Of a stretch of DNA of 64,000 bases, positions 47,165-64,000 are shown in pieces. Each line of letters starts with the position of its first letter. Position 1 is the first letter of the stretch. The DNA lies in NCBI RefSeq assembly GCF_000406945.1, contig NZ_KE136354.1, positions 2,297,245 through 2,361,244 on the forward strand, read 5' to 3'. Below the pieces are notes generated by a model. That model had not been told where the DNA came from, ran no database searches, and saw only the letters and a program-made list of their open reading frames with translations. Made by a program: the position numbers and the translations under genes. Source of the DNA: Enterococcus dispar ATCC 51266. GTDB taxonomy: Bacteria > Bacillota > Bacilli > Lactobacillales > Enterococcaceae.

Positions 47165-47557
47165 TTGGCACAAGCTCAATATAGCGGCACAGGCCGTCGT
47201 AAAAATGCAGTAGCTCGCGTACGTTTGGTACCAGGTACTGGTAAAATTACTATCAACAAAAAAGACATTGAAGAATATATCCCACATGCTGATTTACGTT
47301 TAGTTATCAACCAACCATTTGGTGTAACTGAAACAAATGGCGCTTACGATGTAATGGTAAACGTAAACGGTGGGGGCTACGCTGGACAAGCTGGCGCAAT
47401 CCGCCACGGCATTTCACGTGCATTATTAGAAGTTGATCCTGACTTCCGTCTTGCATTAAAACGTGCTGGTTTATTAACACGTGACGCTCGTATGGTTGAA
47501 CGTAAAAAACCAGGTCTTAAGAAAGCCCGTAAAGCTTCTCAATTCTCTAAACGTTAA
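47165..47557 (+). CDS. rpsI: 30S ribosomal protein S9
   Basis: This 130-residue protein starts at TTG behind AGGAGGG ([20 protein letters not shown]) and ends [12 protein letters not shown], whose C-terminal Lys-Arg reach the P-site tRNA. The gene is intact. Its last 50 bases are the attachment site used by the adjacent genomic island, and a copy with synonymous changes lies 13.3 kb downstream, so integration leaves the protein unchanged. Confidence 0.97.
47508..47557 (+). repeat. attL: rpsI 3' end used as island attachment site
   Basis: This 50-base segment matches 60828-60877 at 45 of 50 positions; all five differences are third codon positions. Right after it, AATCGTTG-TTATAC-CAACGATT forms a perfect small hairpin. 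Confidence 0.85.
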
Positions 47558-50367: not shown

Positions 50368-50404
50368 ATTCATAGACATCCATCTATGTAAAGGAGTAGA
50401 AGAT

Positions 50405-50752
50405 ATGAATTATGATGAAATATCGATAATGCTTAAGGCTCTTGCTGATCCAAAACGTTTAAAAATCATTGATATATTGTCTTGCGGTAGTTTGTGTGCC
50501 TGCGATATCTTAGATCACTTTGACTTCACTCAGCCAACTCTTTCACATCATATGAAAGTATTAGAAAAGGCTGGGATTGTCACAGTGACTAAGGATAAAA
50601 TATGGCATCATTATCAATTAACGGAAAGCTTCGCCGATCAATTTATGGGTTCAATGATGCAATTGTTTTCTGATAAAGATGATTGCATTTGTAATAAACT
50701 AAATTGTAATTGTAAAGGGGAAAAAAATGATGAAAAAATTGGAGCTATTTGA
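50405..50752 (+). CDS. arsR: Arsenical resistance repressor ArsR
   Basis: This 115-residue winged-helix repressor of the ArsR/SmtB family releases DNA on binding As(III) or Sb(III). The sensor region reads CGSLCACDILDHF with the paired cysteines next to the recognition helix (PTLSHHMKVLEKAG). A cysteine-rich tail (DDCICNKLNCNC) is unusual and may add metalloid binding. The start at 50405 follows AAGGAGTAG. It is the first gene of the ars operon and overlaps arsD by 26 bases. Confidence 0.92.
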   Translation: MNYDEISIMLKALADPKRLKIIDILSCGSLCACDILDHFDFTQPTLSHHMKVLEKAGIVTVTKDKIWHHYQLTESFADQFMGSMMQLFSDKDDCICNKLNCNCKGEKNDEKIGAI

Positions 50753-51104
50753 ACCAGCAATGTGTTGTTCAACAGGAGTCTGCGGTCCATCAGTTGATGA
50801 AGAATTACTAATGGTAACCTCAGTATTTGAAAATTTCGAAGGACTGGATTCAATTGACGCTTCTCGTCACAATTTAACCAGTGATCCAGATGCTTTTGTC
50901 AAAAATCCAACAATCTTGAAGTTGCTTCAAGAAAATGGTAATGATATTTTGCCGATAACCTTATTAGATGGAAAAATTGTCAAAGAAGGTTCTTATCCAA
51001 CCTTAGAGGAATTCGGAAAGTATGGAGAGGTTCGCTTTGTAGTTCAATCAGCTAGTTCTGGTAGCTGCTGTGGAGGGAATAATGGGAGCGAAGGCTGTTG
51101 TTAA
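50727..51104 (+). CDS. arsD: Arsenic metallochaperone ArsD
   Basis: This 125-residue protein delivers As(III) to the ArsA ATPase and weakly represses the operon. The metal site is MCCSTGVCGPS; with the second ATG (50730) as start, these cysteines become Cys12, Cys13 and Cys18, the standard numbering. The two C-terminal vicinal pairs (GSCCGG and EGCC) are also present. It overlaps arsR and is followed after 34 bases by arsA. Confidence 0.93.
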   Translation: MMKKLELFEPAMCCSTGVCGPSVDEELLMVTSVFENFEGLDSIDASRHNLTSDPDAFVKNPTILKLLQENGNDILPITLLDGKIVKEGSYPTLEEFGKYGEVRFVVQSASSGSCCGGNNGSEGCC

Positions 51105-51138
51105 TAGACCTCTTTAAAAGGGAAAGGGAGGAGATACA

Positions 51139-52866
51139 ATGCTTCAATATATACCAAAAAAGATAGAATTAACTAAATATCTGTTTTTCACAGGTAAAGG
51201 TGGGGTTGGGAAAACGACTACGGCTTGTGCCACGGCGACATCTTTAGCGGAAGACGGCAACCAGGTTATGCTAGTCAGCACAGACCCGGCTTCAAACCTG
51301 CAAGATGTTTTCCAAACAAAATTAACAAATAAACCGACTACGGTTGACGGAATTAGCCATTTGAAAGTTGCAAATTTTGATCCAATCACAGCGGCAGAAG
51401 AATACAAAGAGAGTATTGTCGGTCCTTATCGGGGAATCTTACCAGATAGTGCACTAGTTAATATGGAAGAACAATTATCAGGCTCTTGTACAGTAGAGAT
51501 TGCTGCTTTTAACGAGTTTGCGAACTTTTTAACTGATAAAGAAGTTGCAGAGCAATTTGATTATGTAATTTTTGACACCGCCCCCACTGGGCATACGCTA
51601 AGAATGCTACAATTACCTTCTGCTTGGAATAATTATCTGGATGAAAATACAACTGGAGTTTCTTGCTTGGGACAATTATCCGGATTGGGTGATAAAAAAG
51701 AGATATATGAAAAAGCAGTGGAGACACTTACAGATGCAACCCAAACATCTTTAATTTTAGTGACCAGACCGCAAAAAGCACCACTAATTGAAGCTGAACG
51801 TGCTTCCGAGGAACTATTGAAATTAGGGATTAAGAATCAATTACTAGTGGTTAACGGATTATTGAATAATCCTGATGATGTGATTTCTCAGGTAATCTAC
51901 GGTGAACAACAAAGTGATCTAGAAGAAATGCCAAAGCCTTTGAGCAAATTAGAAAAGTACTATATTCCACTTCGCCCATATAACGTTGCAGGAATAGATA
52001 AGCTTCAAATTTTATTGAGTAATCAACAGCCAGCTGTTCACCAACATGAACAGGAACCGATTGAGTTTCCAACGTTAGATTTTATTGTGAGTGAGTTTAT
52101 TCGAACGAATAAAAAGATTATTTTTACGATGGGAAAAGGTGGCGTTGGCAAGACAACTGTTGCTATTCAAATCGCAGAAAAATTGGCACAATCAGGTAAA
52201 AAAGTTCGTTTAGCGACAACGGATCCTGCCGATCATCTAAATCTTTTTATTTCGAATGAGTTGCCAATTTCAATCAGCCATATCGATGAAGAACAGGAAC
52301 TAGAATCTTACAAAAAAGAGGTTCTTTCAAAAGCTCGTCTGACGATGAATGCGGATGATGTCGCTTATGTCGAAGAAGACCTTCGTTCACCTTGCACGCA
52401 AGAAATTGCAGTATTTAGAGCATTTGCGGAAATTGTAGATAAGTCAGAAAATGAAATTGTGGTAATAGATACCGCTCCAACAGGACACACATTGCTTCTT
52501 TTGGATTCCACGCAAAGCTATGCCAAAGAAGTTGAAAGAAGTTCTGGCGAAGTGCCATTGTCGATTCAAAAGCTATTACCAAGATTACAAAATAGCAATG
52601 AAACGGAAGTATTGATGGTTACTCTGCCTGAAACAACGCCAGTGTACGAATCGATGCGTTTAGATGAAGATTTGAATCGTGCAAAGATTGCTCATACTTG
52701 GTGGCTAATCAATCAAAGTATGTATGCTACCGATACGTCCAATGAAGTATTAAAGGCGCGCGCTACAAATGAAATTGAGTGGATCAATAAAGTAAAAGAT
52801 CTTTCAGATGGGCATTTTGCGGTAACAGAGTGGGTTCCTAACTTTGACGCAAAATTAGTTCATTAA
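51139..52866 (+). CDS. arsA: Arsenite-stimulated ATPase ArsA (two-domain)
   Basis: This 575-residue ATPase energises arsenite export. It has two homologous halves, each with the deviant Walker A GKGGVGKTT (near residues 18 and 333). Signal-transduction motifs DTAPTGHTLR and DTAPTGHTLL are seen in both halves. Conserved cysteines in SGSCTVEIA, GVSCLGQL and LRSPCTQEIA fit the arsenite site. It is between arsD and the exporters; a second ArsR-type promoter follows its stop. Confidence 0.95.
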   Translation: MLQYIPKKIELTKYLFFTGKGGVGKTTTACATATSLAEDGNQVMLVSTDPASNLQDVFQTKLTNKPTTVDGISHLKVANFDPITAAEEYKESIVGPYRGILPDSALVNMEEQLSGSCTVEIAAFNEFANFLTDKEVAEQFDYVIFDTAPTGHTLRMLQLPSAWNNYLDENTTGVSCLGQLSGLGDKKEIYEKAVETLTDATQTSLILVTRPQKAPLIEAERASEELLKLGIKNQLLVVNGLLNNPDDVISQVIYGEQQSDLEEMPKPLSKLEKYYIPLRPYNVAGIDKLQILLSNQQPAVHQHEQEPIEFPTLDFIVSEFIRTNKKIIFTMGKGGVGKTTVAIQIAEKLAQSGKKVRLATTDPADHLNLFISNELPISISHIDEEQELESYKKEVLSKARLTMNADDVAYVEEDLRSPCTQEIAVFRAFAEIVDKSENEIVVIDTAPTGHTLLLLDSTQSYAKEVERSSGEVPLSIQKLLPRLQNSNETEVLMVTLPETTPVYESMRLDEDLNRAKIAHTWWLINQSMYATDTSNEVLKARATNEIEWINKVKDLSDGHFAVTEWVPNFDAKLVH

Positions 52867-52870
52867 TTTT

Positions 52871-52906
52871 TTGACCTATATATAGATAACAATCTATATA
52901 TAGGTT
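52871..52906 (+). promoter_or_regulatory. Second ars promoter with palindromic operator
   Basis: TTGACC and TATATA lie 18 bases apart in a perfect palindrome (CCTATATATAGAT-AACA-ATCTATATATAGG would be 30 bases; arms at 52875-52887 and 52892-52904). It shares the ATAGAT/ATCTAT core of the arsR operator, so ArsR probably binds here too. Confidence 0.75.
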
Positions 52907-52957
52907 CATCTATTCGTTTGAGGAAAATAAATTTTTTATTCTGCTGGAGATGGAAAA

Positions 52958-54016
52958 ATGAATCAAGTAACTAAGAAATTGTCTTTACTAGATCGATATT
53001 TGACATTATGGATTTTTATTGCAATGGCAATTGGTATAGGAATGGGGTATTTTTTTCCCAATATTCCTAAAGTAATAAATCATTTAGAAGTTGGGACGAC
53101 TTCGATTCCAATTGCAATAGGTTTAATTTTGATGATGTACCCACCACTTACAAAAGTAAAATATGAAGAAATGTGGCGTGTTTTTAAGGATTGGAAGGTA
53201 CTCTTACTTTCACTAGTTCAAAATTGGATTGTCGGTCCAATTATTATGTTTGTTTTAGCAGTAGTCTTTTTGCACAACTATCCAAGTTATATGGTTGGGT
53301 TAATTATGATTGGGCTTGCTCGATGTATTGCTATGGTAATCGTCTGGAGTGAGCTTGCCCAAGGAGACAACGAGTATACAGCTGGATTAGTAGCATTTAA
53401 TTCTATTTTTCAAATTGTATTTTACTCATTATTTGCATATATCTTTGTCACAGTATTACCGAACTGGCTTGGTTTAGAGACACATACGATTAATATTACA
53501 ATGGGAGAAATTGCCAAAAGCGTTTTTATTTATCTGGGAATCCCATTTATTGCAGGTTTTAGTTCAAGATTTATTTTGATCAAAATGAAAGGGAAAAAAT
53601 GGTTTGAAACTAAGTTTATCCCTAAAATAAGCCCAATAACTTTGGTTGCATTACTATTTACAATTATCGTAATGTTTTCCGTAAAGGGTGAAAAAGTGAT
53701 TGAGTTGCCATTAGATGTAGTTCGAATTGCTATCCCACTACTATTCTATTTTGTAATTATGTTTTTTGTATCATTTTTACTCTCAAAAAAAATGGGCACA
53801 AGTTATCCAATCGCGGCATCGTTATCTTTTACGGCTGCAAGTAATAATTTTGAACTAGCGATAGCCGTAGCAGTAGGTGTATTTGGGATCAATTCGGGTG
53901 AAGCATTTGCGGCGGTTATTGGCCCCTTGGTCGAAGTTCCAGTTTTAATTGCTTTAGTGAATGTTGCTTTAAAATTTAAACAAAAATATTTTTCGAAAGA
54001 AGGCGCAAGCCATTAG
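52958..54016 (+). CDS. Arsenite efflux permease Acr3, copy 1
   Basis: This 352-residue membrane protein has about ten hydrophobic segments and belongs to the ACR3 branch of the bile/arsenite/riboflavin transporter fold. The conserved cysteine of the fourth segment is in [19 protein letters not shown]. It pumps As(OH)3 or antiporter-type arsenite out, probably in partnership with ArsA. It starts at ATG 52958 behind CTGGAGATGG. A second, clearly different Acr3 gene follows 10 bases later. Confidence 0.9.
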
Positions 54017-54026
54017 GAGGAAATAA

Positions 54027-55112
54027 ATGAGTTCAGAGAATGAAAAACAAGGATTAGGTATTTTTGAAAAATATCTGACGTTATGGGTAATTGTGTGTAT
54101 GGTTATTGGGGTGCTAATTGGAAAATTTTTGCCGAGCGTTCCTGACACCTTAAGTAAGTTTGAATATTATCAGGTATCAATACCTACAGCAATTTTGATA
54201 TGGTTAATGATTTATCCAATGATGTTGAAGATTGATTTCACTAGTATTGTTAGTGCAGCCAAAAAGCCTAAAGGATTAGTTGTTACCTGCGTGACAAACT
54301 GGTTAATCAAACCTTTTACAATGTATGCTATATCCGCTTTTTTCTTCTATGTGATTTTTAAGAATCTTATACCTATAGAATTAGCAAAAGAGTACGTTGC
54401 TGGTGCTGTTATATTAGGTGCTGCACCTTGTACAGCTATGGTATTTGTATGGAGTTATCTAACGAAAGGTGACGCAGCATACACTCTGGTACAAGTAGCG
54501 ATCAATGATTTAATTATTTTGATTCTATTCGCACCCATTGTAGCGTTTCTACTTGGTGTGGACAATGTTGTTGTTCCAATGGGAACATTGCTATTATCTA
54601 CAGTTCTTTTTGTAGTAGTGCCACTACTTCTAGGTTTCGTTACTAGAGTAATGATAATAAAAAATAAAGGTAAGTACTATTTCGAAGATGTCTTTTTAAA
54701 GAAATTTGACTCTGTTACAATCATTGGATTATTGCTAACGTTGATTATTATTTTTTCTTTTCAAGGTGAAAAAATATTAGCCAATCCAATTCATATTTTA
54801 TTAATTGCAATTCCACTAACCATTCAAACGCTACTAATTTTTACTATTGCCTATGGGTGGTCAAGGTTTTGGAAGTTGCCTCATGAGATTGCCTCACCAG
54901 CTGGAATGATTGGTGCGAGCAATTTCTTTGAACTAGCGGTTGCTGTTGCGATTTCACTTTTCGGCCTACAGTCTGGCGCGACTTTAGCAACAGTTGTAGG
55001 AGTGTTAGTTGAGGTACCGATCATGTTGCTATTAGTAAAGATTTCCAACAATACTAAGTCATGGTTTGTTAAGTCAGGTGATACTAACCAAATTGAAAAT
55101 CTATATGAGTAG
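54027..55112 (+). CDS. Arsenite efflux permease Acr3, copy 2
   Basis: This 361-residue Acr3 paralogue has the variant signature GAAPCTAMVFVWSYLTKGD, the more common Acr3 form. Its sequence differs widely from copy 1, so the two were not created by recent duplication. Having both may broaden pH or substrate range; this is inference. It follows AGGAGGAAATAA and precedes the oxidoreductase gene by 14 bases. Confidence 0.9.
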   Translation: MSSENEKQGLGIFEKYLTLWVIVCMVIGVLIGKFLPSVPDTLSKFEYYQVSIPTAILIWLMIYPMMLKIDFTSIVSAAKKPKGLVVTCVTNWLIKPFTMYAISAFFFYVIFKNLIPIELAKEYVAGAVILGAAPCTAMVFVWSYLTKGDAAYTLVQVAINDLIILILFAPIVAFLLGVDNVVVPMGTLLLSTVLFVVVPLLLGFVTRVMIIKNKGKYYFEDVFLKKFDSVTIIGLLLTLIIIFSFQGEKILANPIHILLIAIPLTIQTLLIFTIAYGWSRFWKLPHEIASPAGMIGASNFFELAVAVAISLFGLQSGATLATVVGVLVEVPIMLLLVKISNNTKSWFVKSGDTNQIENLYE

Positions 55113-55126
55113 TTGGGGTGCATAGT

Positions 55127-56788
55127 ATGAAAATAATAATCATCGGGTCTGTTGCAGCAGGAACAAGTGTTGCTGCAAAAGCGAGAAGGAACACAGAAGA
55201 AGCGGAAATCATTCTATATGATAAAGATATCGACATCTCATATTCTGTTTGTGGAATTCCATATGCTGTTGGAGGAGAAGTTGAAAAATTCGATGAATTG
55301 ACTCCACGGAATGCTGAGTGGTTCAAAAAGAGATACAACGTAGATATTCATACTTCGCATGAAGTACAACGTATTGACCATAAAAAGAAACGTATTTACG
55401 GACTAAATTTGATTACTAGAAAGTCGTTTTCAGATGATTATGATGCATTAGTATTTGCAACAGGTTCAATTTACAATACACCGGCTATATTCTCTAATAG
55501 ACAATTTGAAAATGTATTTCAAATCAAAAATGTTTCCAGTGGTAAAAATATTCACAACTTTATTAAGACTAATAAAGTAGAAAAAGCTGTTATTGTAGGT
55601 GCTGGATATATTGGGTTAGAGATGGCTGAACAATTACAGAGACAAGGAATAGCTGTTTCGTTACTGCAACGAGGCAACCATCCAATGTCTCATTTAGATT
55701 GGGATATGGCTATAAGAATAGAGAACGAAGTAGCAAAACAACAGATTGATTTTAGGCCAAAAGAAACGGTTGTTGAATTAGTAGGTGAAGAACAACTAAC
55801 TGCTGTTAAGACTTCAAAAGGGAATGAATTATCAGCCGATTTATTTGTATTGGCAACAGGAGTAAGGCCAAATACAGAATTGGCTCAAACCATAGGAATA
55901 GAGTTGGGCAAAACGGGAGCAATTAAAGTAGACAATAGAATGGAAACCAATTTGAAAAATGTCTATGCAGTAGGGGATGTAGCAGAAAGCTACAATCGCA
56001 TTACTCAACAACCAATCTATCGTCCCTTGGCTTCGACTGCGAACAAGATGGGTAGAATTGCTGGTGACACAATTACTGGTGGCTCTTTACGATTTAAAGG
56101 AATATTAGGAACCGGTATTTTGCGCTTTTTTGATTTAGCCATTGCACAAACGGGTCTTACTGAAAAGGAAGCTCTTAAAGAAGGATTAGAAGTTGCCGTT
56201 TTATACAATATAAAACCAAATAAACCTGATTACATGGATGGCAAAGAAATGGTCATCAAAGCAATAGCAGATAAAAGCAGCGGTAGAGTTCTGGGTGCCC
56301 AAATTATCGGTTATGACGGAGTAGATAAAAGAATCGACGTGCTTGCTACGGCTATTTCCTTTGGAGCATTGGCGGAAGAACTGTTTGATTTAGATTTAGC
56401 TTATGCACCACCATTTTCAACAACCAAGGATCCCGTTCATTATACTGGAATGGCCTTAGATAACGCGGTGAAGAGAAGAGCGCCTTTGATGTCCCCGATT
56501 GAGTTAATTGAACGACAACACAGAAAAGAAAAGTTACAGATAATTGATACAAGATCCAAAAAGCAATTCGAAAAATCAAAGGTTAAAGGAGCTATTCATA
56601 TTCCATTATCTGATTTGAGGACACGCTACGATGAGTTAGACAAGAATGTTTTGACAATTACGTACTGTAATAAAGGTGTTACCGGGAATGCTGCACAAAA
56701 TATACTGTTAAACGAAGGATTCAAACACGTGTACAATCTTTCCGGAGGAAACAAAAATTATCAAGAAATTTATGAGAATATTGATTAA
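55127..56788 (+). CDS. FAD-dependent oxidoreductase with C-terminal rhodanese domain (CoA-disulfide-reductase-like)
   Basis: This 553-residue protein joins a pyridine-nucleotide oxidoreductase to a rhodanese. The N terminus has the FAD fold IIIGSVAAGTSVAAKAR and a single redox cysteine in SYSVCGIPYAVGG like CoA-disulfide reductases. The NAD(P) fold is VIVGAGYIGLEMAEQL. The last 95 residues form a rhodanese domain with active Cys in TYCNKGVTG. In ars operons such fusions are frequent; a role in thiol or arsenate redox has been suggested. Exact substrate is unknown. The start at 55127 has TTGGGG ahead; the frame is open from a GTG three codons earlier. Confidence 0.85.
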   Translation: MKIIIIGSVAAGTSVAAKARRNTEEAEIILYDKDIDISYSVCGIPYAVGGEVEKFDELTPRNAEWFKKRYNVDIHTSHEVQRIDHKKKRIYGLNLITRKSFSDDYDALVFATGSIYNTPAIFSNRQFENVFQIKNVSSGKNIHNFIKTNKVEKAVIVGAGYIGLEMAEQLQRQGIAVSLLQRGNHPMSHLDWDMAIRIENEVAKQQIDFRPKETVVELVGEEQLTAVKTSKGNELSADLFVLATGVRPNTELAQTIGIELGKTGAIKVDNRMETNLKNVYAVGDVAESYNRITQQPIYRPLASTANKMGRIAGDTITGGSLRFKGILGTGILRFFDLAIAQTGLTEKEALKEGLEVAVLYNIKPNKPDYMDGKEMVIKAIADKSSGRVLGAQIIGYDGVDKRIDVLATAISFGALAEELFDLDLAYAPPFSTTKDPVHYTGMALDNAVKRRAPLMSPIELIERQHRKEKLQIIDTRSKKQFEKSKVKGAIHIPLSDLRTRYDELDKNVLTITYCNKGVTGNAAQNILLNEGFKHVYNLSGGNKNYQEIYENID

Positions 56789-57023: not shown

Positions 57024-57082
57024 CAGTATAAAAGTTAGAGCGACTTCTAATTTAAGAATTGTTTTACGAAAGGAAAAAGTAT

Positions 57083-58018
57083 ATGGAATATGCACTTGAA
57101 ATAACGAATTTAAAAAAAATCTATGGAACAGGTGTTGAGGCATTACGTGGAATTGATCTCCAGGTTGAAGAGGGTGATTTCTATGCCCTTTTAGGGCCCA
57201 ATGGTGCTGGGAAGTCGACAACCATTGGTATTATTACTTCTCTTGTCAATAAAACATCTGGAATGGTAAAAGTTTTCGACTACGATCTTGATAAAGACTT
57301 AGAAAGAGCAAAGCAGCAAATTGGTCTTGTACCACAAGAATTCAACTTCAATCCATTTGAGACTGTTCAACAAATTGTAGTGAATCAGGCAGGTTATTAT
57401 GGTGTTCCGAGAAAAGAAGCATTGAAGCGCAGTGAGAAGTATTTGAAGCAATCAAATTTATGGGAAAAACGTAACGAACGTGCTCGGATGCTCTCTGGCG
57501 GGATGAAGCGCCGGCTGATGATCGCTCGAGCACTAATGCACGAACCAAAGCTATTAATTTTGGATGAACCAACCGCTGGGGTGGATATTGAACTGAGACG
57601 TGAAATGTGGTCCTTCTTAAAAGAATTAAACGAAAATGGAACCACTATTATCTTGACCACTCATTATTTGGAAGAAGCTGAAATGCTTTGTCGACACATA
57701 GGGATCATTCAATCAGGAGAATTGATTGAAAATACTAGTATGAAAGAACTTCTATCCAAATTACAATTTGAAACATTTATTTTAGATCTAGCACCTCATG
57801 ATGCAGTTCCTAAGATAGAAGGATATACGTATTCTTTAGAAGACGATCTGACTTTATCAGTGGAAGTTGAACGAAATCAAGGAGTAAATGATATTTTTAA
57901 TCAACTCAGTGATCAAGGGATGAAAGTTTTATCGATGCGGAATAAATCTAATCGTTTAGAAGAGTTATTTTTGAAAATCACCGAAGAAAAAAGATTTTTG
58001 GAGGAAACCAATGCGTGA
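57083..58018 (+). CDS. ABC-2 type transporter ATP-binding protein
   Basis: This 311-residue ATPase has Walker A GPNGAGKST, the signature LSGGMKRRL, and Walker B LLILDEPTAGVD, followed by an H-loop TTHYLEEAE. The C-terminal extension is typical of DrrA/YadG-type exporters. It pairs with the permease, whose start overlaps its stop (ATGCGTGA). The exported compound is unknown. The ATG at 57083 is preceded by AAAGGA. Confidence 0.9.
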   Translation: MEYALEITNLKKIYGTGVEALRGIDLQVEEGDFYALLGPNGAGKSTTIGIITSLVNKTSGMVKVFDYDLDKDLERAKQQIGLVPQEFNFNPFETVQQIVVNQAGYYGVPRKEALKRSEKYLKQSNLWEKRNERARMLSGGMKRRLMIARALMHEPKLLILDEPTAGVDIELRREMWSFLKELNENGTTIILTTHYLEEAEMLCRHIGIIQSGELIENTSMKELLSKLQFETFILDLAPHDAVPKIEGYTYSLEDDLTLSVEVERNQGVNDIFNQLSDQGMKVLSMRNKSNRLEELFLKITEEKRFLEETNA

Positions 58019-58781
58019 TATTTATCTTACTGCTTTAAAAAGTCTTGCTATTAAGGAAACTAACCGTTATCTACGTATTTGGGTACAAACTCTGGTGCCA
58101 CCAGTTATAACGACATCGTTGTATTTTATCATTTTTGGGAAAATGATTGGTGGCCGAATTGGAGATATGGGTGGGTTCACTTATATGGAATTTATCGTAC
58201 CCGGATTAATTATGATGTCAGCAATCACAAGCTCATACGCTAATGTATCTTCATCTTTTTTCTCTCAAAAGTTCCAAAAAAATATTGAAGAGCTATTAGT
58301 TGCTCCAGTACCAACACATATCATCATTTGGGGATTTGTTATTGGTGGGTTAGGACGAAGTATTCTCGTAGGATCACTTGTAACGATTATTTCCTTATTT
58401 TTTGTGCCACTTAATGTTCATTCATGGATTATTGTTATTCTCACGTTATTAATGACTGCAATATTATTTTCATTAGCTGGTTTGATAAACGGTGTTTTTG
58501 CTCAATCTTATGACGACGTATCGATCGTACCCACCTTCGTTTTACAGCCGTTAACTTATCTAGGAGGAGTATTTTATGCGATATCGATGTTGCCCCCATT
58601 CTGGCAAGGTGTTTCAAAAATAAATCCAATTGTTTATATGATCTCAGCGTTTAGATATGGATTTTTAGGAACAACCGATGTACCAATAGCTATGTCGATT
58701 ACAATACTTATTTTATTTATTGTTGTTCTTTATTCTATTTGTTACTATTTAGTCGATACAGGTAGAGGGTTAAGAAGTTAA
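58011..58781 (+). CDS. ABC-2 type transporter permease
   Basis: This 256-residue membrane protein has six hydrophobic segments and the ABC-2 pattern near PFWQGVSKINPIVYMISAFR. It overlaps the ATPase gene by 8 bases, so the two are translationally coupled. The pair resembles YadG/YadH-type exporters, which move lipids, drugs or polysaccharide parts. It is cargo of the island, next to the ars operon but with no evident link to arsenic. Confidence 0.87.
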   Translation: MRDIYLTALKSLAIKETNRYLRIWVQTLVPPVITTSLYFIIFGKMIGGRIGDMGGFTYMEFIVPGLIMMSAITSSYANVSSSFFSQKFQKNIEELLVAPVPTHIIIWGFVIGGLGRSILVGSLVTIISLFFVPLNVHSWIIVILTLLMTAILFSLAGLINGVFAQSYDDVSIVPTFVLQPLTYLGGVFYAISMLPPFWQGVSKINPIVYMISAFRYGFLGTTDVPIAMSITILILFIVVLYSICYYLVDTGRGLRS

Positions 58782-60188: not shown

Positions 60189-60422
60189 TACGATTCACGG
60201 GCCATTAATAGAAGCACAAAATCGGTAGTTTAAAATTCAATGAGGCTAATTGAAACTTGCATAACTAAAAATATTAGCTCAATACACTATTTGAAACTCG
60301 CTAAAACCAGTGAAAACAAAGTGTGAACTTTTTTAAATTAGTTTACACTTGTCAATAAGTGCTTATTTCCTTGGTATAACAGTGTTTGTACGTAGTTTTT
60401 CGATTGTTTTTCGTGTTTTTGT
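60189..60422. other. Intergenic region between fic and the oriT
   Basis: No gene is seen; AT-rich with no clear structure apart from the inverted repeat that follows. Confidence 0.4.
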
Positions 60423-60446
60423 ACCCCCCTGTTAGATAGGGGGGGT
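60423..60446. other. Candidate oriT of the ICEBs1/Tn916 (MobT) type
   Basis: On the minus strand it reads A, seven C, TATCTAACA, six G, T: 24 bases. As I recall it, the ICEBs1 oriT is A, seven C, ACGCTAACA, six G, T, and Tn916 has a similar GC-rich arm pair around TCTAACA. Length, arm sizes and the CTAACA core agree. No relaxase gene is in the island. Confidence 0.7.
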
Positions 60447-60451
60447 GAAAC

Positions 60452-60541
60452 AACACTCGCGGGCTAGCGCCCACTCGTGTTCAAGGCGAACTCTTTACGA
60501 AGGGGAATTCGCTTGAGGCGAACCCCTCCGCAAAGAGCGCC
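60452..60541. other. GC-rich paired hairpins beside the oriT (single-strand origin candidate)
   Basis: AACACTCGCGGGC pairs with GCCCACTCGTGTT (60452-60481), and a longer imperfect hairpin follows (60485-60541; GGCG...CTCTTT with AAAGAG...CGCC, inner AGGGG..TTCGC with GCGAACCCCT). It is much richer in G and C than the surroundings and non-coding. Confidence 0.55.
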
Positions 60542-60827
60542 TAACATTTGGAGGATTTGTTCTTTTATCTTTGACTTTGCAACGTTAAAAAGACCACATG
60601 GGTTTACCATGCAGTTTCTTCAATGGAAAGATAAAAAAGAAGTGTAGTAGATACTGATATGCTCTGAATTTGTCGTAACCAAATTGTCTTACGTTCAAAA
60701 TTGGTTACGAATCGTGGTTACGAGTGCCTAAAATCGACTGAAATCCAGTACAAATCTTGAGGCGAAAAATACTGATAAATCAGCATTTTTGATATTCATT
60801 GATTTAAAATAACACAGTTGAACTGCC
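60542..60827. other. Right end region of the island with arm-type repeats
   Basis: No gene is seen. TTGGTTACGA occurs at 60701-60710, a variant GTGGTTACGA at 60714-60723, and an inverted copy TCGTAACCAA at 60673-60682. A terminator-like palindrome AAAAATACTGAT with ATCAGCATTTTT is at 60765-60790. Confidence 0.65.
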
Positions 60828-60877
60828 AACCAGGTCTTAAAAAAGCTCGTAAAGCATCTCAATTTTCAAAACGTTAA
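60828..60877 (+). repeat. attR of island 1 / attL of element 2: second rpsI 3' end
   Basis: This 50-base copy of the rpsI end encodes the same residues ([15 protein letters not shown], stop) and differs from 47508-47557 only at five third codon positions. It is immediately followed by another integrase gene. Confidence 0.85.
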
Positions 60878-60898
60878 AAACAGCTTCATATCAGTACT

Positions 60899-60938
60899 TT
60901 CAGGCGTTTCGCAATTTACTTTGCGAAGCGTCTTTTTT
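60899..60938 (+). terminator. Terminator overlapping the 3' end of the second integrase gene
   Basis: GGCGTTTCGCAA pairs with TTGCGAAGCGTC, then seven T on the plus strand. It would terminate transcription from an adjacent rpsI and lies in the last codons of the integrase gene on the other strand. Confidence 0.75.
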
Positions 60939-62195
60939 TGAGTTGACACCATTGTTGACACCATTCCGGTCTGACTCTTTTTGAGACAATTTACGATAGG
61001 CAATTTCACCAATGGGCATTTGAATGACGTTTGGTGTATTTACATAAGTTCTTGTGATATTGGTATCGCTGTGAGTCAAGGCTTCAGAAATTTGTTCCAG
61101 AGCGACACCAGCTTGTTTGGCTAAAGTTGCCCCAGTATGTCGTAACTTATGTGGGGTCGCATGGGTAAGGTGTTTATGTCGTCGCTCAATGGATTTCATA
61201 CGGTAATTTAAATAATCTGTATGAAGTCTTTGATTGATATTCCCTTTATCATCAAAGAAGGTAAAGAGTAGCTGCTCTTCGGTTTGTTCGATTTCAAATT
61301 GAGCTAGTTCTTCTTTTTGTTGGACTTTCCACTGTTGAAGTAATTGCTTTAGTTCATTTGGAATATGGAAAATTGTCGTTTTATTCCCTTTGGTACTTTT
61401 TTCATTGCCGAACTTATCTAAGGCTTTACCAATCGTAATCTGGGAAGCAGTGAAATTCACATTCTTCCATTTGATGGCGTAAGTTTCTGATTTGCGATCA
61501 GATAAAAAGAAGGTAGTCAGAAATAATACATAGTCCTGTAAAGTTAGTTGTCCACTTTCATAATCGCTTTGGACGGCAGTTAGCCATTCTTGAAGTTGTT
61601 CAAAGGAGAGGTATAAATCTTCTTCTTTTTTAGCTTCTTGCAATTGGTTTTTCTTAGTAGCATTGATTCGTTTAAGCGATTTTTCTAGTTTATTCCGTTC
61701 GATGTATTCAAGCTCTTCCGCCCAATCGAAAATAGAATTAACGTAGCTACGTAGTATTTTGAAGTTTGCGTATTCGGCAGCCTTTTGTGTCATGATTTTT
61801 AGAACGAAAGCTTTATTTTGATTCAAATAGTTCAATGTGTATTTCCCAAACATTGGTAAGATGTGAAGTCGAAAAATATCTTTTGTATTCGCAATTGTCA
61901 CAGGAGTAGGAGACTTCGTGTTTCGAGAAGTTAAACCAGCTGTATAAGCATCGATCCAGATATCTTCATAGAAAGCTTTGAACAGTGCTTCACCACCTAG
62001 TTCAAAAGCATTCTTTTCTTTGTTTTCCCGTAGCTCTTTAATCTTGGCATAAAAATCAATTTCTGCTGCTTTTGCCTCCTTTCTAGTTTTGAAAGTTTTG
62101 GAATAAAGTTTGTTTACGCCTATCATCTCTTGGATATCTTGTGGATAGTAAAGCCGTAAACGGTAAGTCTCATTTTCTGTTTTGCTAATTGCCAT
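60900..62195 (-). CDS. Tyrosine recombinase integrase of element 2
   Basis: This 431-residue integrase has the same MAIS start and an arm-binding domain as that of island 1. Box I reads FLSDRKSETYAIKW with the catalytic Arg present, box II PHKLRHTGATLAK, and the tail ALTHSDTNITRTYVN carries the nucleophile Tyr. It points towards the second rpsI tail, so it is the integrase that made that junction. It is only distantly similar to the first integrase. The C-terminal residues are encoded within a terminator hairpin. Confidence 0.92.
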   Translation of the reverse strand: MAISKTENETYRLRLYYPQDIQEMIGVNKLYSKTFKTRKEAKAAEIDFYAKIKELRENKEKNAFELGGEALFKAFYEDIWIDAYTAGLTSRNTKSPTPVTIANTKDIFRLHILPMFGKYTLNYLNQNKAFVLKIMTQKAAEYANFKILRSYVNSIFDWAEELEYIERNKLEKSLKRINATKKNQLQEAKKEEDLYLSFEQLQEWLTAVQSDYESGQLTLQDYVLFLTTFFLSDRKSETYAIKWKNVNFTASQITIGKALDKFGNEKSTKGNKTTIFHIPNELKQLLQQWKVQQKEELAQFEIEQTEEQLLFTFFDDKGNINQRLHTDYLNYRMKSIERRHKHLTHATPHKLRHTGATLAKQAGVALEQISEALTHSDTNITRTYVNTPNVIQMPIGEIAYRKLSQKESDRNGVNNGVNSKKDASQSKLRNA

Positions 62196-62260
62196 AGCAT
62201 TTCCCTCCGAATTTGCGAGCCGAAATCAAATACTATATATGGAGTATAACGATGTCGGAA

Positions 62261-62536
62261 TTATTTTGCTAGGCTTGCAAGCCATTGATCAATGGCGATA
62301 CGGTCATATCTATTTGATCCGTGGATTTGAATAAGTGGTAAGCCATCTTTAATCCAGCCATCTAACGTATTATTGGAAACCTGTAGATAGTTACAAGTTT
62401 GCTTCTTATTCATATATCGGTGTTGTAGATTCTCTTGCGTTTTGATTTTTTCAATTTCTGATGTGATTAAATCAGATAGTTGAGTAGAAATGATACCCAT
62501 CTGATCATCACTGAGTAAAATTTTCATTTCGGTCAT
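62261..62536 (-). CDS. Excisionase-like helix-turn-helix protein of element 2
   Basis: This 91-residue protein has the same layout as the island 1 excisionase: an acidic helical N terminus then a helix-turn-helix (QTCNYLQVSNNTLDGWIKDG, then LPLIQIHGSNRYDRIAIDQW). It lies 65 bases upstream of the integrase on the same strand and downstream of the Rep gene. The ATG follows AAGGAAGTGAG. Confidence 0.85.
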   Translation of the reverse strand: MTEMKILLSDDQMGIISTQLSDLITSEIEKIKTQENLQHRYMNKKQTCNYLQVSNNTLDGWIKDGLPLIQIHGSNRYDRIAIDQWLASLAK

Positions 62537-62575
62537 ATTCTCACTTCCTTTGAAATTTGCGTACGGAATAATGAA

Positions 62576-63421
62576 TTATTTTTTTATCTTGGTATAGCGA
62601 ACAATGCTTTCTTGAAAATCCATCACTTGTTCTGGAGTTCCGCTTTCGTTTATCGCACTGTAAAATATTGGACGTCTTACAAGATACTCAATGGTATAAA
62701 GTACGTCTTGATTTGTGATATCAAAAGGTTGATTCACGAGTTGTTTTGTGACGCTGGGCACTTTGAGGTTGCGCGATTTGAAGAATGCCTTCTTCTTATG
62801 CTCTTTCAAATCTAAGTCCTTATCGAAGTATTTACTAATATAGCGCCCACGATTTTCGATACTATCCACATCAATTTTGTTGATTTTGACAAATCCATGT
62901 CCCCAGATGGTAGTAAGACGATTGACGGAGATAAAAGGAAAGTCAAACAGGATAATGTGATAATGGATGGCACCTCGTTCTTGTTTTTCCCACGTGGCAA
63001 GGTATTTTAGATGTGCTTTTTTTGTGTGATAGAGTTCGTAGTTTAGTCGTTTGATAAATTTTTTAAATTCATTATTCGCATAGGCAATGTCTTGAATGTT
63101 TTCTCTGAAAGTGAGGGTTAAAAATTTCGTCTGATTGTCAAAGTTCATATCCACGAGTCGGGCAATTTCAAATCGCATATTTTGATAGTGTTTTTGTTTT
63201 CGTTTTAAGCTGTCGTATTGTCCTTGAGCAGATAATTCATCATAGTTTTTTCTCTTGTCAGTGATGGTGTTTTCTTCTTCATAAAGCCAAGCTAATTCTT
63301 TCTTTCGTTTTGGATTGGTTTTATTTTCGTCTGCTTTTTGTTTCGGAGTAATGATTGCTTCATAATCATAAATTTCAAGGTACGTGGGAGTTTCAATGAT
63401 TTTCTGATTATAAGCCTTCAA
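62576..63421 (-). CDS. HUH-type rolling-circle Rep/relaxase-like protein
   Basis: This 281-residue protein has the HUH metal motif GAIHYHIILFDFP (His-Tyr-His) and, 50 residues later, RYISKYFDKD, a Y-x-x-K-Y motif with the likely DNA-cleaving Tyr. A conserved KFLTLTFRENI strand before the HUH fits motif I. These are the parts of rolling-circle replication initiators of small plasmids, satellites and ICE-type elements. It probably nicks the nearby hairpin-rich region. The ATG lies behind AGGAGTGATG. Confidence 0.88.
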   Translation of the reverse strand: MKAYNQKIIETPTYLEIYDYEAIITPKQKADENKTNPKRKKELAWLYEEENTITDKRKNYDELSAQGQYDSLKRKQKHYQNMRFEIARLVDMNFDNQTKFLTLTFRENIQDIAYANNEFKKFIKRLNYELYHTKKAHLKYLATWEKQERGAIHYHIILFDFPFISVNRLTTIWGHGFVKINKIDVDSIENRGRYISKYFDKDLDLKEHKKKAFFKSRNLKVPSVTKQLVNQPFDITNQDVLYTIEYLVRRPIFYSAINESGTPEQVMDFQESIVRYTKIKK

Positions 63422-63503
63422 AAATCATCACTCCTTGTTGTTTATTCAATTGTCAATGAGCCGTTTATTTTCTCTAGATGTTGTTCTATAAATCAAGTTA
63501 AGG

Positions 63504-63528
63504 GGAAGTCCTGCAAAGCAGTCCTTCC
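63504..63528. repeat. Small inverted repeat upstream of the Rep gene
   Basis: GGAAGTCCTGC and GCAGTCCTTCC form a hairpin with an AAA loop and symmetric TC mismatches. Confidence 0.55.
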
Positions 63529-63530
63529 AG

Positions 63531-63621
63531 CCTATGTGTTTATTGGGCGGTCTTAACGGACAGAAGCGGCTCTATGGCGCTGCCTCGCCGTTTCGTCCTA
63601 ACCACCCAACAAACCCATAGG
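63531..63621. other. Long imperfect hairpin, replication origin candidate of element 2
   Basis: Bases 63531-63570 pair with 63587-63621 over about 35 positions (CCTATG/CATAGG, TTGGG/CCCAA, GGAC/GTCC, GCGGC/GCCGT). The loop is about 16 bases. It lies between the Rep gene and the next gene, in the place expected for a double- or single-strand origin. Confidence 0.65.
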
Positions 63622-63625
63622 AAAA

Positions 63626-63976
63626 TTAGTTTTGCGTAGTGGGGCCTTGTTTTTTCGGAATCAAAGTTGCCGCATCTGCCGTGGCTGATAAACCATAGCT
63701 GACAAATTGACCGTTAGAGCGACCCCAAGGTGCAATCACTAAATTGGCAAATGTAACCATGGCTAAACCTTGTTGGGTAAGTTCTTCTGGAGTAATCACA
63801 GGAGTTTCAGATTTGACTTTGACACTGATTTTTTCGTATCGGAGTTTTGGTAGGATACATTCATAACTCCAACCTAAAAGTTCTCCGTCTTTTTGCCAGC
63901 GAGTAACATTGACGACTTGGTATTCTTTTTCGAGTTTTTCTTTTGGTAAGGTAAGATCGTTGATTTTAATTGGCAT
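63626..63976 (-). CDS. Unknown protein of the Rep module
   Basis: This 116-residue protein (MPIKINDLTLPKEKLEKEYQ at the start) is not recognised with certainty. It has no membrane segment and looks beta-rich, with a low-complexity Ala/Thr C terminus (SATADAATLIPKKQG). Position directly upstream of Rep and of the origin-like hairpin suggests a single-strand DNA-binding or replication accessory protein, as seen beside Rep genes in small rolling-circle elements. It has AAGGAGGGC before its ATG. Confidence 0.6.
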   Translation of the reverse strand: MPIKINDLTLPKEKLEKEYQVVNVTRWQKDGELLGWSYECILPKLRYEKISVKVKSETPVITPEELTQQGLAMVTFANLVIAPWGRSNGQFVSYGLSATADAATLIPKKQGPTTQN

Positions 63977-64000
63977 AATAGCCCTCCTTAGTTATATGTT

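Follow-up and report, generated by a model that had tools for sequence, protein, structure and literature searches.

Relaxase-less integrative elements that mimic the oriT of an ICE are known from Vibrio (PMC5397120; PMC5704250), and a 2024 review supplies the class name iOriT (PMC11389934). MTnSag1 is moved by Tn916, and its oriT is thought to be unrelated (PMC5704250). A streptococcal survey does not count integrase-bearing elements without a relaxase as IMEs (PMC7563491). For the oriT itself, a two-site layout has been described experimentally in ICESt3, whose MobT does not stably bind the nic hairpin and instead binds IR2, 68 bp further; Tn916 also has an IR2-type repeat (PMC9371924).

The locus described here is an arsenic island at rpsI in the window, by which we mean the whole 64-kb stretch of Enterococcus dispar DNA that was analysed. 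We consider it likely that this island belongs to the integrative elements that have an oriT and no relaxase (MGI/iOriT), and that Tn916-type ICEs mobilise it in trans.

Borders and gene content of the island

The direct repeats that border the island are 90% identical over 50 nt, and its genes run from an integrase at one end to a Fic-family protein beside the oriT at the other (Table 1). Pfam assigns the members of the arsenic cargo to ArsR, ArsD, ArsA, two SBF-family transporters, and a pyridine nucleotide-disulphide oxidoreductase with a rhodanese domain. The Fic protein may have a role in addiction, defence or regulation. It has a sub-threshold C-terminal winged-helix match, and its best PADLOC match is SoFic.

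Table 1. Features of the island and its oriT, in window coordinates.
Feature	Position	Strand	Basis or detail
attL, 3' end of rpsI (chromosomal side)	47508..47557	+	50-nt direct repeat
Tyrosine integrase, 395 aa	47649..48836	-	PF00589, E 7e-21
Excisionase-like HTH_17 protein, 96 aa	48884..49174	-	PF12728; role inferred from size and position
HTH_3 regulator, 278 aa	49381..50217	+	PF01381
Arsenic cargo	50402..56788	+	Pfam
ABC transporter ATPase and ABC-2 permease	57059..58781	+	Pfam
Fic-family protein, 355 aa	59121..60188	+	PF02661
IR2, predicted relaxase-binding site	60319..60350	-	AAGTGTAAACT-10 nt-AGTTCACACTT
181-bp low-change block around nic	60365..60545	.	Seven pairwise comparisons with the window
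IR1, nic hairpin of the oriT	60423..60446	-	Pattern scan, fold, covariation, alignment
Predicted nick, CT'AA	between 60434 and 60433	-	Aligned with the CT'AA nic of PMC9371924
Strong stem-loop 5' of the nic hairpin	60470..60550	-	DNA fold z -5.35; 0/200 shuffles fold equally well
attR, common to the next tandem element	60828..60877	+	50-nt direct repeat

An earlier note on this DNA, made from its letters, had seen no MobT, coupling protein or conjugation gene between the att sites, and this held. Relaxase, coupling and T4SS domains were absent from the 12 island proteins scanned with Pfam (small overlapping ORFs left out), and none of the three PF02486 matches in the genome falls within the window. 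With its own integrase and att sites and no relaxase or T4SS found between them, the island has the make-up of an MGI/iOriT. It lacks the relaxase of its own that marks a canonical IME, and its full-length integrase separates it from a CIME, which keeps att sites and has lost its integration genes.

The integrase has the motif GAAKGE, as against GLRISE in the Int of PDB entry 6emy (Tn1549 Int). This places Ala at the first catalytic Arg in 8/8 islands of the family described below, though these islands look recently mobile. Either the replacement is tolerated or the integrase of a neighbour supplies the activity.

A tandem array with four att copies of rpsI type begins with this island; two of the copies are its own, and the others lie at C1:2374708 and 2384153. 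The next element (window 60878-64000, L009:5800-19429) encodes an integrase, an HTH protein and a REP_ORF2-G2P Rep. By eye it also has three reverse-transcriptase-like ORFs (L009 11681-13465, 16012-17130 and 17312-19429), which are possible defence cargo. Another neighbour (L010:13263-19629; C1:2384.3-2390.6 kb) is an IME with a tyrosine integrase, a 418-aa MobT-type protein and its own oriT, and by eye it carries a metal P-type ATPase and an ArsR-type regulator.

A two-part oriT

On the minus strand, positions 60446 to 60423 read ACCCCCCCTATCTAACAGGGGGGT, which is exactly the string given in the earlier note (A, C7, TATCTAACA, G6, T). The pattern C7-NNN-CTAACA-G5, allowing up to three mismatches, has a single match in the 64 kb and none in 100 dinucleotide shuffles. 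In the whole 2.82 Mb genome, CCCCNNATCTAACAGGGG occurs at three places with up to two mismatches, and each of the other two adjoins a Rep_trans/MobT-type gene. As in MOBT-type oriTs, the CT'AA nic core lies in the loop of a GC hairpin.

The island hairpin differs at one position (23/24 identical) from the oriT hairpin of a Tn916-type module carried by an E. faecalis plasmid (L194; annotated YdcP, YdcP, FtsK, MobT, ArdA), and it is likewise 23/24 identical to that of the ICE resident in the same genome. The earlier note had called the site a Tn916/ICEBs1-type oriT. The island hairpin matches the ICEBs1 string, as quoted there, at 21/24 positions, with three differences. The match to a Tn916-type oriT holds, and the island oriT is closer to Tn916-type oriTs than to those of ICEBs1, the latter as quoted. 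Searching a viral contig collection with the ICEBs1 oriT pattern gave 0 matches, and no printed oriT letters were found in PMC7563843.

By itself, the hairpin's fold is unremarkable for its composition (z -1.49; 18/200 shuffles fold equally well). It is the sequence of the hairpin together with its IR2 partner that goes beyond chance, not the fold energy. When eleven hairpins were compared, four of them from islands or remnants, 93.3% of cells paired, a value reached by 0/500 shuffles, and the covariation score of the alignment was likewise reached by 0/500. Two of the five hairpin measures fail to beat shuffles, namely pairs changed on both sides (98/500) and further pair types (109/500). In an island copy from an Aerococcus MAG (L098), two hairpin pairs are changed on both sides (C-G to T-A and A-T to C-G), so the hairpin is preserved as a structure in that copy.

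The second part of the oriT, which the earlier note had not noticed, is IR2, an 11-bp inverted repeat with a 10-nt spacer and one mismatch. It starts 83 nt 3' of nic, and a repeat at a set distance downstream of nic is typical of MOBT-type oriTs: among the loci examined, the best repeat starts at +81 to +86 in 23/23 distinct ICE oriTs with an adjacent MobT. In dinucleotide shuffles of the downstream stretch, a repeat fell at +81 to +86 in 6/20,000 cases, and the same IR2-like repeat fell anywhere in the 213 nt in 201/20,000; the whole window holds seven IR2-like repeats. A hairpin with IR2 at the expected distance thus makes a two-part oriT and goes beyond a hairpin look-alike. This survey drew on 36 distinct pattern matches, of which five were set aside as chance. 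Matches to a looser oriT pattern at L117 and L165 were counted as chance, having neither MobT nor an IR2 at the right place. In 3/6 distinct oriT versions from islands or remnants, automatic IR2 detection chose a different register (+84, three mismatches) instead of the homologous repeat.

The same data bear on the possibility that the hairpin is an intrinsic terminator or a chance GC repeat. It stands about 235 nt past the Fic stop codon, and its fold energy alone is not unusual, as either origin would allow. However, no T-run follows the hairpin on either strand, the nic core is exact, IR2 is correctly spaced, and the oriT of the resident ICE is 76% identical over 155 nt. Given the missing T-run, the 0/100 shuffle matches and the IR2 shuffle control, we rejected both readings as extremely improbable.

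On the other side of the hairpin, the strong stem-loop is a candidate single-strand origin or terminator. A similar stem-loop stands beside the oriT of the resident ICE (z -7.52), and one of this type was looked for in the Aerococcus copy and not found. In Tn916 and ICEBs1, the MobT relaxase also initiates rolling-circle replication at oriT (PMC9371924; PMC6499999), and with a strong stem-loop adjoining it the MobT-nicked site might serve less for transfer than as a replication origin of the excised island. One role does not rule out the other, however, and islands that are nearly identical across species and genera (below) require some transfer route. We hold it very unlikely that replication is the main function.

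A family of rpsI islands without MobT

The earlier note had proposed looking for the same oriT in other relaxase-less rpsI islands, and we found it in seven further complete islands without a MobT match. The complete layout, att-Int-Xis-Reg-cargo-Fic-oriT-att without MobT matches from one att site to the other, occurs in eight genomes of three genera: that of the window, E. songbeiensis (G009), Enterococcus sp. MJM12 (G006), Enterococcus sp. MSG2901 (G031), E. florum (G016), E. hermanniensis (G018), E. viikkiensis (G029) and E. xiangfangensis (G030). In the seven further islands MobT was searched throughout (no match in 7/7) and other domains were scanned in part of the cargo. Compared with the window's, their integrase proteins are 96.7-99.5% identical and their HTH_3 regulators 80.6-99.6%. 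Integrase, excisionase-like protein and regulator are matched over their full or nearly full length across all eight islands, which are 97.6-100% identical over 170 nt of the oriT, and a Fic protein adjoins the oriT in 8/8.

The cargo is of four kinds (ars, Hachiman, methylase/ATPase and sugar genes). An ars block is the cargo of four islands. E. hermanniensis carries a Hachiman HamA/HamB pair (L082:11435-15392; PADLOC HamB E 0, HamA E 5e-100), to which ORFs in the E. xiangfangensis island are near-identical. The E. viikkiensis island has a cytosine methylase and an AAA ATPase, and that of E. florum a DeoR regulator (Pfam) and, by reading of the ORFs, sugar-phosphate genes.

More widely, Fic relatives (E<=1e-70) were found in 14/105 genomes and the strict hairpin pattern in 25/105. 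Outside Enterococcaceae, a MAG of Candidatus Atopostipes has a contig fragment of the island, and the Aerococcus MAG holds a 1.5-kb att-Fic-oriT-att unit without an integrase (L098:8595-10229). This unit is possibly the smallest form of the element, and it would fit the CIME definition. If the Atopostipes and Aerococcus contigs are rightly binned, they suggest that the island has spread beyond Enterococcaceae.

Two broader associations were rejected. Fic and oriT do not always occur together: among the best 80 of 228 Fic loci, 4/14 with at least 86% identity (named genomes) have no oriT, and an oriT accompanies 0/66 of the more distant ones. Nor is the oriT common to the whole integrase family, since five islands with 56-68% identical integrases show none in the stretches examined; three of them encode, instead, a Rep related to the REP_ORF2-G2P protein of the window. 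In another genome (G039, L206:11654-13278), a broken integrase relative, 91-94% identical in two pieces, belongs to a tandem rpsI array, and no oriT was seen close to it. Comparing the oriT-att region with a plasmid collection returned 75 records, none covering 80% of it, and among the 40 listed all match only the rpsI-end att (query base 649 on).

Sequence constancy around nic and signs of transfer

In the 5/7 genomes that could be compared, host rplM/rpsI share 83-96% identity with those of the window, and the integrase genes are 94.7-99.8% identical in 7/7. As the integrase genes are more alike than the host genes, the islands seem to have moved recently between species.

In the block around nic, E. 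songbeiensis, E. florum and E. viikkiensis have no change relative to the window, and the other four islands have two each. E. songbeiensis is identical to the window throughout the compared stretch. In E. florum and E. viikkiensis, the positions changed within 60189-60827 (38 and 41) all fall on either side of the block, and so long an unchanged run arises in at most 1/20,000 random placements (a test chosen post hoc and then applied to all seven islands). In the two Enterococcus sp. genomes, the 282 bp past the block show no change and the longest run is placed at 60403-60827, which suggests recombination that may explain part of the low change. E. hermanniensis and E. xiangfangensis have 2/181 positions changed in the block versus 19/176 before it, and their longest unchanged run, in a stretch cut at 60556, is not unusual (992 and 1014 of 20,000). 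Set against one neighbouring non-coding stretch, the oriT gives a weak contrast (Fisher p 0.005 for E. hermanniensis, 0.31 for E. florum and 0.08 for E. viikkiensis); three rows at the alignment's left edge, with a three-base offset, were left out of these counts.

These patterns also bear on whether the island is a vestige, i.e. a decayed ICE or CIME that has lost its transfer genes and whose oriT no longer works. Sites of the rpsI type often hold CIMEs and show tandem decay (PMC7563491; PMC5704250), the window itself sits in a tandem array, and rpsI islands in two genomes (G004 and G007) hold decayed Fic-oriT remnants with an altered core or arm. However, CIMEs have lost their integration genes, whereas those of the eight islands are about full length. 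The block around nic is little changed, hairpin pairing is kept through changes, and the scan of 12 island proteins revealed no ICE gene. We think a vestige unlikely.

Candidate helpers

The earlier note had pointed to resident Tn916- or ICEBs1-like elements as helpers, and the genome does hold, elsewhere in its chromosome, a MobT/T4SS module of the Tn916 superfamily (C1:611.8 kb). It includes an FtsK-type coupling protein, an oriT, a MobT (Rep_trans and HTH) and a VirB4-type AAA_10 ATPase, among others, and two small genes that resemble orf22/orf23 by eye. A PF00589 search found no integrase within 20 kb of the module, the nearest match being at C1:671.8 kb, and so this helper may be unable to excise; missing excision would not prevent it from acting in trans. 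By eye, copper genes and a SIR2-like/HerA pair lie near the region of the module (L007/L008; C1:about 606-622 kb).

As natural helpers, the Tn916 relatives of enterococci that these genomes hold are more probable. Of 105 Enterococcaceae genomes, 35 have a MobT relative (E<=1e-100, 48-100% identical). These include 7/8 of those with a complete island, against 28/97 of the others (Fisher p 0.0018, kinship ignored), and outside the window's genus the figures are 4/5 and 22/90 (p 0.019). Several observations count against mobilisation in trans. They include the Ala in the integrase, the oriT remnants in G004 and G007, the Fic loci without an oriT and the low change around nic that is not specific in every pair. 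In addition, each IR2 half-site of the island differs from the resident ICE's at 2/11 positions, the MobT relative of E. florum is only 49% identical, and E. hermanniensis has an IME-type MobT only.

This last genome would fit a different route, in which the island moves only in cis with its tandem array by way of a neighbour's relaxase, either the 418-aa MobT of the IME (C1:2385-2387 kb) or the Rep of the next element. The att copies do stand in tandem and the neighbours encode MobT-like or REP_ORF2-G2P proteins; E. hermanniensis has MobT of the neighbour type only, and in G006, G018 and G031 the element next to the island has a relaxase-type gene right after attR. However, such movement leaves the island's own oriT unexplained. 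The oriT of the neighbouring IME is a separate one that differs in its hairpin flank and lacks an IR2 of the island's type, and both cargo and neighbours vary between islands. We regard movement in cis alone as quite improbable.

Proposed route of transfer

Judging from its sequence, the arsenic island probably travels between bacteria by borrowed conjugation machinery. For mobilisation in trans, we infer excision, nicking and transfer, and which helper serves, as follows. The integrase and excisionase would cut the island out of rpsI as a circle. MobT of a co-resident Tn916-superfamily ICE would use its N-terminal HTH to bind the inverted repeat at +83 and would nick the CT'AA of the GC hairpin. 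The nicked strand would then be exported by the coupling protein and T4SS of the helper, and the island's own integrase would re-insert the island at the recipient's rpsI.

A more far-reaching proposal, which we offer tentatively and with some doubt, is that these islands are cargo-swapping satellites of Tn916-type ICEs that carry metal resistance and anti-phage genes across Enterococcaceae and neighbours. Their asymmetric IR2, in which each half-site resembles a different ICE class, might then serve several MobT relaxases.

Surveys of relaxase genes miss elements such as these islands. A short oriT rule (hairpin plus IR2 at +81 to +86) would reveal islands movable in trans by Tn916-type ICEs, which are a widespread group in Firmicutes, and the islands so found could include carriers of metal resistance or phage defence.

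Comparison with known systems

The kind of element is already known (MGI/iOriT); within the literature searched, what appears new is the MOBT-oriT island family. A MOBT-oriT mimic in a family of tyrosine-integrase islands with swapped cargo was not found in open-licence full-text literature, which leaves outside most subscription journals and all bioRxiv preprints.

The island shares with the oriTs of Tn916-superfamily ICEs (MOBT: Tn916, ICESt3, ICEBs1) the GC hairpin with a CT'AA nic and the IR2 at a set distance downstream; unlike these ICEs, it has no detected relaxase, coupling protein or T4SS gene. Streptococcal rpsI IMEs (e.g. IMESag-rpsI) use the same site but encode a MOBV1 relaxase (PMC5090054). 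The esp pathogenicity island of E. faecium also integrates at rpsI, with a 54-bp imperfect repeat, but is a large element; the comparison, from the text, covers the site only (PMC2858755). MTnSag1 and tISCpe8 are relaxase-less, come from Firmicutes and have Tn916 as helper. They differ in having a DDE transposase and an oriT that lies inside the resistance gene and is not significantly like that of Tn916 (PMC5704250). The Vibrio MGIs likewise carry an integrase and an oriT that mimics the one of an ICE, and this oriT is processed by the SXT/R391 relaxosome (PMC5397120). They occur in other bacteria, and the relaxase family on which the enterococcal islands would draw, MOBT, is a different one; the enterococcal islands would be a Gram-positive counterpart to these SXT-dependent islands.
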